Source: a virus
DNA length: 21,188 bases
IMG/VR virus record: IMGVR_UViG_3300037189_013284
Location: 1-21,188 of that record
Direction: 5' to 3' (one strand)
Shown: one piece after another, positions 14,687 through 18,263 of the stretch
Position numbering within the stretch: the first letter of the stretch is position 1
Layout of the letters: each line of letters starts with the position of its first letter
The notes under the pieces: generated by a model
Databases searched by the model: none
What the model was told of the DNA's origin: nothing
The model's input: only the letters and a program-made list of their open reading frames with translations
Translations under genes and position numbers: made by a program

Positions 14687-16600
14687 TCACCAGCTCCCGA
14701 CGAATCCGCCGGATCGCGGCGCCGGCTGTGGCCTTGGGCGGGGCCGCTGCTGTTCGGGCAGCTTGCCTAGGCTCGCCTCGATCTGATCCCACATGGTCGC
14801 CCGGTTGTAGCGCCTAGCCACCAGCTGGAGGGCGGCATAGGCCATCCTGGTGCAGTCGCCGCCTTCGTCATGCGATCCCGCAGGCATCTCCCAGCGATAG
14901 CTCACTTGCCCCCTGTCGCGCTTCGGAATGCGCTTCCATGGGAACAGCTCCGCCAGGAATTCATCCGAGCTGGCCACGCCTAGATGCAGATACCCCGGCC
15001 CCGGGGTGTCGATTCTCAGCCGGGTCTGCAGCTGCTTAATGCTCGCGTCATAGCCCAGCTCATACAGCAGCACGCCACGCGCCTGCTTGCCGCTTACGCC
15101 CTTGTTGCGCCTGTCCACCTCCACCGGTGCACCCTTGCCGATCAGCACCTTCCCCTGAACGCCAGATCCCTTCATCGGCACCCACAGCCCGCCGCGGCCC
15201 ATGCACCACTTCCGCATCTCATATGAAGGGCTGCCGCCATCATCAATCCCGCCGATCTTCATTCGCAGTTCGGTGCCATCCTGCCGGCGCCATCGAGTAC
15301 CCGCCACCGCATCAAGCTGATTCAACGTGTCGGCGTGCTCCGGGTCGCCGTCAATTTCAAAATGCCCCAGGTGCCAACCTTCCTCCCCGCGGCCCCATCC
15401 CCAGATCGTTACCACCAGCCGCTCATCCGTGGTGCCGCCGCCGCCCTGCCGGTCCACCCCGGCGGTGATCATCAGCACGCCATCAGGCACCACGCCATCG
15501 GCGTACCCATTCCCGGCCGACACGTCCGCGCGGCGCTTCTCCAGTTCGTCGCCGGTGAGCTTCGTAGTGATCGTGTCTTCCCATGGTTCCCCCAGCACCG
15601 TGTTATGGAACGCCTGCATGGCGTCTGGGTCGCCTTTCTGCATTGCCTGCAGGGCTTCGGCGTGCTCCCGCACCAAGACGGCCCAGTCGGCCGCAGGGCT
15701 GTAGCTGTAGGCCGCCCAGATATGGAAGCTCACTAGCCCGGGCTGCTGGCTTACCGCCGTTGCTCGCCACTCGCCGCGCTCCACCATCCATCGCTTTTTG
15801 CTGTGTGGGATTGGCTCGGCGCAGTTCTCGCATTCGTACCGGCCGGCATTCTCGCCCTCGCGGATCATCTGCTCCCACCTCAATACCTGCATCACCTGGC
15901 AGAAAGGGCACGGCACATAGAAGCGCCGCTGATCACCACGCAGAAACCACTCCTCAGTCTTGCCTCCCTTGAAGATCGGAGTACCACCTAATCCAATCTT
16001 TCGATCCCAATAGTAGTCCGCCCGATTGCGGCCTAGCTTGATCGGGTCGCCTTCGTCCAGCTTCGGGTAAGCGTCCGGCTCATCAAATAGAACCACCTTC
16101 CGCGACTTGCGCCGGAAGCTGCGACCGCTTGCGGCGTTCACAATATCAATCAGCCCACCATTAGACAGCTGTTTCAGCAGAATCGTATTACTCGCAGTGT
16201 TCCTAGCTTTGCTCTCTGAGATCAACCCACGCAAGCACGGCGTATCCTCAAACAGTGCCTTTACCTCTTCCTTGCTATATCCCTCTGCGTCTTCTTTAAC
16301 CGGTTGCACAATCATCACCGGGCACGGGTCCTGGTGGCTGAACTGCTGAATCACAACGCCCAGCATCTTCGTCCAGCCGATCCGCGCGCTCTTCATTATC
16401 GCCACCGTCTCAACCGTTGGATCGGTGAACGAATCGAGGATCTGCCGCTGGTATGGCAGTGTTTTCCACCTTCCCTTCTCTGCCGCGTTGCCGGTCATAA
16501 CCGCGAACTCATCCGCGTAGTCGCTCAGTCGCAGCCGCGGCGGTGGCTTGAAGCCCCCCAGGATCTGCGCCATCAACTCCCCCACGTCGGCCGTGATCAC
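14687..16600 (-). CDS. Terminase large subunit (lambda gpA family)
   Basis: A 637-aa DNA-packaging motor. The ATPase part has the gpA-type adenine/Walker A region (LPYQRQILDSF and MKSARIGWTK, Lys70-Lys78) and Walker B KVVLFDEPD (168-176). A Cys4 zinc-finger-like insert follows (CPFC at 231-234, CENC at 257-260). The nuclease part has the expected acidic positions: Asp383 in TAGVDRQG, Asp453/Asp454 in GGIDDGG and Asp582 in HDEGGDC. It would cut concatemers and pump DNA into the prohead with TerS. The GTG start (16598-16600) overlaps the TerS stop as GTGA. Length is close to lambda gpA (641 aa). Confidence 0.96.
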   Translation of the reverse strand: MITADVGELMAQILGGFKPPPRLRLSDYADEFAVMTGNAAEKGRWKTLPYQRQILDSFTDPTVETVAIMKSARIGWTKMLGVVIQQFSHQDPCPVMIVQPVKEDAEGYSKEEVKALFEDTPCLRGLISESKARNTASNTILLKQLSNGGLIDIVNAASGRSFRRKSRKVVLFDEPDAYPKLDEGDPIKLGRNRADYYWDRKIGLGGTPIFKGGKTEEWFLRGDQRRFYVPCPFCQVMQVLRWEQMIREGENAGRYECENCAEPIPHSKKRWMVERGEWRATAVSQQPGLVSFHIWAAYSYSPAADWAVLVREHAEALQAMQKGDPDAMQAFHNTVLGEPWEDTITTKLTGDELEKRRADVSAGNGYADGVVPDGVLMITAGVDRQGGGGTTDERLVVTIWGWGRGEEGWHLGHFEIDGDPEHADTLNQLDAVAGTRWRRQDGTELRMKIGGIDDGGSPSYEMRKWCMGRGGLWVPMKGSGVQGKVLIGKGAPVEVDRRNKGVSGKQARGVLLYELGYDASIKQLQTRLRIDTPGPGYLHLGVASSDEFLAELFPWKRIPKRDRGQVSYRWEMPAGSHDEGGDCTRMAYAALQLVARRYNRATMWDQIEASLGKLPEQQRPRPRPQPAPRSGGFVGSW

Positions 16601-17154
16601 GCCCGCACCTCCCCAGCCGCCAGCTCATCCAACGCATCGCGGATCAGCGCCGTCAGTAGCTCCACCTCCTCCAAGTCCAAATGAGGAATCCGCTGCTTCG
16701 CCGTGCTCGGCACCCCCAACAGCCGCGTGCGGGTGATGTTGACGGCCTGGCCCCAGGCCAGCTTTACATCCTCGCGGCGCAACAGCTCGCGCTCCTTCTC
16801 CTGTCGTGCCAGCTCAGCGAGCAGTCGCTTCTCGCGCTCATGCCTGGCGCGCTCATCGTTGTAGTCGGGCACCTCGCCATCAGCAGCGCGCGGGCGTTGC
16901 GGCGCCGCTGGGGCCGCTGGGGTTGGCTCTGGTGGCGCCTGGCGCACGGCGGCCGGCCGCAGCGGCCGTGGAGCGCTGTTGGTCTGCCTACGGCTGATCT
17001 GTCCCCACAGCTCCTCCAACCCCTCGCGCTGTATCAGCCGGGTGCCATTCGGCCCCGGCTCGGTCGGCAGCTCGCCTGACCGGATCTTCCTGTAGACGCT
17101 GCCTCGGCTCTTGAAACCGAGCACAGTTGCCGCCTGATCAACCGTGATCAGCAC
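16597..17154 (-). CDS. Terminase small subunit (Nu1-like)
   Basis: A 185-aa protein directly upstream of and overlapping terL. Residues 1-50 are a winged-helix DNA-binding domain with a MerR/excisionase-like recognition helix (VDQAATVLGFKSRGSVYRKIRSGELP). A Pro/Ala linker (about 58-92) leads to a charged helical C-terminus (NDERARHEREKRLLAELARQEKERELLRRED, then QAVNITRTRLLGVPSTAKQRIPHLDLEE), the arrangement of lambda gpNu1 and relatives. It recognises the packaging site and recruits TerL. An in-frame TGA lies just upstream of the GTG at 17152-17154, so a longer start is ruled out. Immediately upstream is a cluster of TGTCACA inverted repeats, a good candidate for its binding site. Confidence 0.88.
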   Translation of the reverse strand: MLITVDQAATVLGFKSRGSVYRKIRSGELPTEPGPNGTRLIQREGLEELWGQISRRQTNSAPRPLRPAAVRQAPPEPTPAAPAAPQRPRAADGEVPDYNDERARHEREKRLLAELARQEKERELLRREDVKLAWGQAVNITRTRLLGVPSTAKQRIPHLDLEEVELLTALIRDALDELAAGEVRA

Positions 17155-17372
17155 CTGAAACGCTTGTCACACTTGGCTGTCACATTAGCGGCGACTGTGA
17201 CAAGCTAATGTGACAAACCCGGCCTAGGGAGGGGAAAATCCTGTCCTGACCTAGCTTGTCACACTCTTTTGACACCGTTATCAAGATAGAAACCGTGGTT
17301 TGAATACACCTCAAAATCAGGAGGCCAAGAAGGACCCAAAATTTTCTCCAACTTGTTACCCTCTACTTATAC
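17155..17372 (-). promoter_or_regulatory. Non-coding region before terS: candidate packaging site or operator
   Basis: This 218-bp gap is more AT-rich than most of the window and lies between the virion-type gene and terS. The terS-proximal half carries five TGTCACA/TGTGACA cores (listed separately). In lambda-type phages the cos site, including binding sites for the small terminase, lies just upstream of the terminase genes, so this is the expected place. It could equally be a promoter-operator region for the late operon, as no other sizeable gap exists upstream of it for 3 kb. I see no convincing -35/-10 pair. Confidence 0.55.
17162..17276. repeat. Nested inverted repeats of TGTCACA upstream of terS
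   Basis: Exact elements: GCTTGTCACA (17162-17171); TGTCACATTAGC (17178-17189) with its perfect 12-bp inverse GCTAATGTGACA (17204-17215); TGTGACAAGCTA (17196-17207) with its perfect 12-bp inverse TAGCTTGTCACA (17252-17263). A half-match TTGACACC lies at 17269-17276. Two different 12-bp inverted repeats share an overlapping central arm, so alternative hairpins or paired protein sites are possible. Confidence 0.9.
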
Positions 17373-18263
17373 CTATCGTTTGCGTTTTAAGTTTCTATCC
17401 AGCGCGGCCATAAAGTGCTGACGAAATACTCTATTGTATTCCTTTAAGGCAATGCCCTTAATGTCATATCTCCTTTCGTAGTTTGGTTGATCAACAACAT
17501 TAAGAACTCGTGTGAACTTCCTCCGATAACCGATAGTCTGCGGCCGGCCACGCTTGCCGCTGCCTTTGCCTGTCCCGCCCTTCGGCCCTGGGCCAGTGCG
17601 GACGGCTACGGCTATTGGCTCGGCACCAAGCTGCCAGCGGCTTGGTCCGGTGCCGTCGGATCGGAGCATGAAGAAATCCCTTTCGCGGCGCTTAGCGCCA
17701 CTGCGGCCACGCGAGCCAGGATCTGCGCCTCGGGTGGCGTTGGCGGTGTAGCCCGCATCAGAGAAGGCCCGCAGCCTGGAGAGGACCTGGGTGTACTGCG
17801 GCCCCTTGAGGTTGCCGTAGCGGTCCAGCTTGAGGCCGCGGCCAGTGGGCGTGATGAACTGATCCGGCCCGATCAACCCGGCCCGCCTCAGCTTGACTTC
17901 GGTGGACTTGGGCCCCCGATCCCCGCCACGGGATTGCAGCTCCATGTAACGGCCCGAGGGTGTGCCGCCTGACTGTGGGTTGAATCCTGCCCCGGTGTTC
18001 AGCCTCTCCCCGTAGTTGAAGCCGACATAGCTAGACAGGTTCTCAGGCTTAGCGAATGAGGCCACCAGGCCGCGCCGTGTCCAGGCCACAGGGCCCCCTT
18101 GGATCTTGGGTAGCACCTGCCGTCTCAACGCTTCCTTGGCGTCCTTGGCGCTGCTGCTCATAGCGCGCGCCGTTGTCCAACCCAGCTCCCCATGGGCCGC
18201 GGCCACCCATCGGGCCATGGCGCTCACCTGGCTGGCGTCAACCTCAACCGTCAGCAGGCTCAC
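17373..18263 (-). CDS. Virion-type protein of unknown function
   Basis: A 296-aa protein that I recognise only by pattern. It starts at GTG 18261-18263. The N-terminal helix (ARWVAAAHGELGWTTARAMSSSAKDAKEALRRQVLPK) and the conserved-looking block GRYMELQSRGGDRGPKSTEVKLRRAGLIG, LDRYGNLKGPQYTQVLSRL and C-terminal RRYDIKGIALKEYNRVFRQHFMAALDRNLKR resemble a widespread but uncharacterised phage protein usually found among head/tail genes. A gpZ-like minor tail role has been proposed for similar-looking proteins, but I cannot support it here. Lys/Arg-rich, with a Gly-rich linker (GPGPKGGTGKGSGKRG). Its location before terS and next to ruvC is unusual. The last ~150 nt of the gene are markedly AT-rich. 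Confidence 0.7.
   Translation of the reverse strand: MSLLTVEVDASQVSAMARWVAAAHGELGWTTARAMSSSAKDAKEALRRQVLPKIQGGPVAWTRRGLVASFAKPENLSSYVGFNYGERLNTGAGFNPQSGGTPSGRYMELQSRGGDRGPKSTEVKLRRAGLIGPDQFITPTGRGLKLDRYGNLKGPQYTQVLSRLRAFSDAGYTANATRGADPGSRGRSGAKRRERDFFMLRSDGTGPSRWQLGAEPIAVAVRTGPGPKGGTGKGSGKRGRPQTIGYRRKFTRVLNVVDQPNYERRYDIKGIALKEYNRVFRQHFMAALDRNLKRKR

Follow-up and report, generated by a model that had tools for sequence, protein, structure and literature searches.

The cos site of phage lambda consists of cosQ, cosN, I2, and cosB in this order and is served by Nu1 and gpA, the small (TerS) and large (TerL) terminase subunits. In lambda, 21, and N15, the packaging specificity is set by the TerS recognition helix together with cosB, and cosQ and cosN are shared (PMC4669245). 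N15 has a simple cosB lacking an IHF site and still belongs to the lambda-type cos family (PMC4669245). Gram-negative PICIs hijack packaging through Rpp, keeping cosQ and cosN for TerL and replacing cosB to suit a different DNA-binding domain (PMC6739421). The closest isolate to the virus studied here is Synechococcus phage S-LBS1 (MG271909), whose TerL is 76% identical and whose TerS is 72% identical in its C-terminal half, and which was reported as headful by PhageTerm (PMC6157547).

The window, meaning the whole stretch of DNA analysed here, is an entire virus record of 21,188 nt. Judged from its sequence, five TGTCACA/TGTGACA cores sit between terS (start at 17154) and a complete lambda-type cos, and this array very probably constitutes the cosB of the site. 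The lambda-type cos itself is already known; new here are the heptamer cosB sequence and its symmetric layout. The repeated exchange of cosB and the TerS winged-helix (wHTH) domain as a cassette is the more interesting part.

The probable cos region upstream of terS

A 218-bp intergenic region holding the array separates terS (16597–17154) from a gene for a minor tail protein (phrog_1924, 17373–18263), both on the minus strand, as are terL and the cos elements described below. Along the packaging strand, R1 (TGTGACA, 17165–17171) ends 10 nt ahead of the terS start codon and is accompanied by R2 (TGTGACA, 17178–17184), R3 (TGTCACA, 17196–17202), R4 (TGTCACA, 17209–17215), and R5 (TGTGACA, 17257–17263), which is nearest to cosN. 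On the plus strand, R1, R2, and R5 read TGTCACA, and R3 and R4 read TGTGACA. All five are exact copies, as the initial annotation had claimed, and the two interlocking inverted repeats that it described, with central arms sharing four bases, are likewise present. One repeat pairs TGTCACATTAGC (17178–17189) with GCTAATGTGACA (17204–17215) over 12 nt (100%), while the other pairs 17193–17207 with 17252–17266 over 15 nt (93%) and includes TGTGACAAGCTA and TAGCTTGTCACA; the central arms overlap at 17204–17207. Nine heptamer cores occur across the whole window against 1.7 expected, a number attained in 0 of 100 shuffles, and five or more copies of any 7-mer appeared in 4 of 5000 dinucleotide shuffles of the 218-bp region. 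Because the positions flanking the core carry at most 0.6 bit (150 exact cores from 43 unique upstream regions of relatives), the conserved unit is the 7-bp heptamer only, the 12-bp arm extension being mostly peculiar to this phage. The relatives retain the symmetric >> << order of the cores with differing gaps (6-11-6, 4-11-4, 7-7-6, and 4-8-4), and most of them have a degenerate TGCGACA/TGTGACA at the R5 position.

The feature reaches past the interval of the initial annotation, extending to cosN (17299–17310) and cosQ (17331–17337). The cosQ-like heptamer GGGTCCT lies 27 nt ahead of the predicted nick, and the same heptamer is found in the right end of lambda (NC_001416). The cosN element, mapped from relatives by alignment, would yield the 12-nt 5′ cohesive end GGTGTATTCAAA, with the left virion end starting at 17310 in the minus-strand reading. 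Between cosN and the array, a degenerate palindrome, TTGATAACGGTGTCAA (17269–17284; consensus TTGAGAACNNTTCTCAA), occupies the position of lambda I2. This palindrome-like element is common to wHTH types A and B, and CTAGCG..CAGG is found in place of TTGAGAACNNTTCTCAA in the L203-like loci. The window contig reads through cos, and cosQ is present in nearly all relatives whose contigs do so. Where the array adjoins terS, the order is cosQ, about 27 nt, cosN, the TTGAGAAC..GTTCTCAA palindrome, one core, 30–59 nt, the >> << quartet, and terS.

This region resembles lambda cos in its order and spacing, in the GGGTCCT cosQ, in the 12-nt 5′ cohesive end, and in the TerS-binding repeats (here putative) that face both ways within the cosN–terS interval. 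The distance from cosQ to the nick is 30 nt in lambda and 27 nt here, and that from cosN to terS is 190 bp in lambda and approximately 145–160 bp here. Unlike lambda, which has three longer R sequences (R3, R2, and R1) around an IHF site, the present region has 7-bp TGTCACA cores, four of them forming a symmetric >> << quartet and one lying close to cosN. The cohesive-end sequence also differs, and the TTGAGAAC..GTTCTCAA palindrome stands at the I2 position. Even when up to 3 mismatches were allowed, the vicinity of cos gave no match to the lambda-type R sequence CGTTTCCTTTCTC, and the IHF site WATCAANNNNTTR is absent from the window. The R sequences differ among lambda, 21, and N15 and are allele-specific rather than family-defining.

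The 185-residue product of terS matches HTH_17 (2.5e-7) and phrog_57 (4.8e-19), the PHROG that also contains lambda Nu1 (1.3e-76). An AlphaFold2 model predicts a confident wHTH at residues 1–58 (pLDDT approximately 86; coding positions ~16981–17154), followed by a helical second half that probably binds TerL. In a Foldseek search, the best matches of the wHTH were MerR/BldC/RacA-type wHTH proteins, and a viral packaging-motor domain (7lwr) appeared at rank 31 with a target TM of 0.70. Searching the PDB by sequence with a profile of TerS gave no relevant match and none to Nu1. The shared PHROG, the predicted N-terminal wHTH, and the modelled helical C-terminal half place this protein in the lambda Nu1 small terminase family, and the five cores represent candidate cosB sites that match its DNA-binding domain. 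Downstream of the array region lie terL (14687–16600), encoding a 637-residue lambda gpA-type ATPase and nuclease (PF05876, 1.1e-56; PF20454, 3.8e-63), a portal gene, and a capsid/protease fusion. The minor tail gene is the last gene ahead of the predicted right virion end; in L203 and L221–L232, the gene before cosQ is a homologue or counterpart of it.

Several relatives show variants of this region. An HNH endonuclease gene encoding roughly 270 residues lies inside cos in type-B relatives (L225, 2228–3040; L233, the left end of G021), with cosN and the first R site on one side and the remaining R sites on the other; this arrangement probably recurs in many type-B loci. The contigs of the type C relatives L040 and L044 start with a cosN-like sequence, and no clear array was found in these two. 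A search of host genomes yielded a single distant relative, in a proteobacterial (Hyphomonadaceae) MAG (L202), in which GGGTCC followed by the cosN-like sequence GAGGTTATTCGAATCGC lies upstream of a terS/terL relative without a TGTCACA array.

Fixed contig ends at cosN in relatives

Contig coordinates were tabulated for 78 terL-selected loci, and in 66 of them the contig terminates upstream of terL. Of these 66 ends, 20 fall at cosN, within 1–2 nt of the position equal to 17310 in the window; with ends spread evenly over a few kilobases, we estimate that a fraction of one end would be expected there. These 20 contigs start with the GGT of cosN, 25–27 nt ahead of the half-palindrome. The 41,987-bp contig G021 carries GCTGCCAAGTAG at both termini, a 12-nt terminal repeat located exactly at cosN. 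Its right end consists of GGGTCC, 22 nt, and GCTGCCAAGTAG, which places GGGTCC 28 nt ahead of the nick. Filled-in 5′ cohesive ends produce an overlap of 12–13 nt between the left and right ends, and the terminal repeat of G021 is as expected from such ends. A cosQ–cosN pattern scan identified three other contigs with right ends exactly 13 nt beyond the nick, at GGTGTATTCGAAC, and two scans via the tail genes found no further right ends. The 44,450-bp contig G001 starts at cosN and stops within a run of C residues shortly before cosQ. The initial annotation had anticipated virion ends near 17155–17372, which is borne out in the relatives by the contig ends at the equivalent of 17310 and by the 12-nt terminal repeat there. 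These ends indicate a staggered cut with 12-nt 5′ cohesive ends in the relatives, and the alignment suggests the same cut for the window.

S-LBS1 differs from the window in its TerS wHTH and has a TGCCTAACC array, with no TGTCACA array, ahead of terS. No cosQ–cosN arrangement was found at the four GGGTCC sites listed for this phage. The last ~125 nt of its record (L002, 34263 and 34517) are repeated 254 bp earlier, which may be an assembly overlap or a real repeat, and about ten TGCCTAACC repeats lie at that end ahead of terS, despite the headful report.

Exchange of the array together with the TerS winged-helix domain

The TerL search recovered 80 related loci. Where the TerS of a locus aligns over the N-terminal domain, cores almost always sit immediately ahead of terS; the other loci lack them there. 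The initial annotation had named relatives with the same terS and no repeats as evidence against its proposal; among the terL-selected loci, two or more TGTCACA cores precede terS in 15 of 16 with a type-A wHTH, compared with 0 of 30 with a type-B wHTH (Fisher, 3e-11). GGTTGC repeats occupy the same place in 29 of the 30 type-B loci and in none of the 16 type-A loci, and the final GGTTGCA of type B abuts the terS ATG. On the TerL tree, the two wHTH types are interleaved with 14 type changes, and the array and the domain type are concordant in all 10 independent pairs on supported branches.

Seven sister pairs differ in cosB and the wHTH, yet most of them share 87–98% DNA identity from mid-terS onward (76% in one pair). 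In L038/L027 (98% DNA identity) and L132/L010, the identity begins at approximately TerS codons 85–105 and continues through terL. In L132/L010, L016/L037, and L057/L003, the identity is restored at cosN on the other side of the differing cosB and wHTH. L203 retains the tail gene, cosQ, and cosN of the window, with 88.5% DNA identity up to window position 17284, beyond which the array consists of CCATAACC repeats, TerS is a different one, and the N-terminal half of TerL has diverged, before identity returns at 15543. Over window positions 15543–17284, the N-terminal half of TerL is thus swapped along with TerS and cosB, and the nuclease half is kept. The concordance shows co-exchange, and the invariance of the cores points to a functional role; since the array and the wHTH are adjacent and movable in one recombination event, their joint inheritance could partly reflect hitchhiking. 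Taken together, the proposal of a cosB-like small-terminase binding array at the packaging site is supported, as the array tracks the TerS wHTH and lies beside the contig ends of relatives. Further arrays, such as GTTAAC-like repeats, were assessed by visual inspection only.

The heptamer also occurs outside this setting. When the entire viral collection was scanned independently for loci with three cores in the order of the array, at least 118 matched; of the 118 examined, 48 carry a TerS relative and 70 do not. Since arrays occur without TerS, the heptamer alone is not diagnostic. The TerS-free arrays (L084, L158, L173, L089, L187, L100, L106, L114, and others) are well above the chance estimate of about 3, so the heptamer probably serves other proteins as well. 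In L156 (~1890–1990), a TGTCACA array is directly followed by an ORF whose start resembles that of a wHTH protein, and a distant terL is found 1.5 kb away; possibly a second phage group shares the layout described here.

Competing explanations, packaging model, and significance

The initial annotation considered an operator of the late operon as the main alternative, whereby a phage repressor or activator on TGTCACA would control terS–terL transcription. The proximity of R1, and of the type-B GGTTGCA, to the terS start means that any protein bound there would sit on the leader, and the arrays in phages without this TerS also fit such a role. However, the motif follows the TerS DNA-binding domain, the array holds a fixed place beside the physical genome end, and the sole sigma-70 match in the region is weak and on the other strand; a promoter and terminator scan of the region found nothing convincing. 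Operator control is accordingly improbable as the main role and possible as a secondary one, and TerS autoregulation, a special case of it, is compatible with the assignment as cosB.

Still less probable is a pac site of a headful phage, at which TerS would bind and cutting would be imprecise. The headful call for S-LBS1, with its 76% identical TerL, favours this possibility and counts against the cosB assignment, although the TerS wHTH and the array of that phage differ. Headful phages yield scattered, variable genome ends, whereas the contig ends of the relatives are fixed at cosN, they agree to the nucleotide from one contig to another, left and right alike, with an overlap of 12–13 nt, and cosQ is conserved. 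The suggestion that the repeats form alternative DNA or RNA hairpins, such as an attenuator or a replication structure, was dropped as the least likely of all. The transcribed strand does fold strongly (−48.7 kcal/mol, z = −5.1), but any such inverted repeat folds well, conservation of the arms stops at the 7-bp core, the gaps vary, type-B relatives replace the sequence altogether, and no covariation was seen outside the heptamers.

We therefore return to the cosB assignment and propose the following model. Winged-helix dimers of the Nu1-like TerS would bind the heptamer half-sites, namely the >> << quartet beside terS and the one core near cosN, and the bound TerS would position TerL on cosN (17299–17310). 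TerL would then introduce staggered nicks that generate 12-nt 5′ cohesive ends, and packaging would begin rightward through terS. At the incoming end, the cosQ element (17331–17337) would serve to terminate packaging. The array and the start of terS, which encodes the wHTH, would form one exchangeable specificity cassette, flanked on one side by the conserved cosN and on the other by the half of TerS that probably binds TerL.

The logic is that of the lambda, 21, and N15 alleles, in which a shared cosQ/cosN is combined with differing cosB sites matched to the TerS recognition helix. Unlike in those phages, several alleles occur here in one close phage group, of which TGTCACA, GGTTGCA, and CCATAACC are clear and others are likely, and the TGTCACA/GGTTGCA type is inferred to have changed 14 times on the TerL tree. 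By analogy, the exchanges between the window and L203 and within the sister pairs can be regarded as a natural counterpart of the lambda/21/N15 specificity experiments. PICI Rpp hijacking similarly retains cosQ and cosN for TerL and replaces cosB, but here the swapped domain is part of TerS itself, encoded by the phage. Neither a satellite nor an Rpp was found here: a search for satellites with an array and no TerS gave 70 matches, and none of those listed shows both cosQ and the palindrome.

In a group of lambda-like phages that are uncultivated and probably infect cyanobacteria, these findings fix where packaging starts and where the genome ends lie. The many natural matched pairs of a TerS recognition domain and its target heptamer provide a decoding set for TerS–DNA recognition that is unobtainable from lambda, 21, and N15 alone. 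Tentatively, and with more doubt than confidence, we suggest that cosB and the TerS wHTH form a hypervariable, often exchanged packaging-specificity locus in a large aquatic lambda-like phage group. Cos/TerL hardware that is otherwise interchangeable would there be combined with incompatible specificities, of which there would be at least three and probably over six. Such diversity might be maintained because it stops a phage's capsids from being filled with the genomes of co-infecting phages or with packaging pirates (satellites). With the repeated exchange of the cassette, the question of why phages diversify their packaging specificity becomes directly testable.
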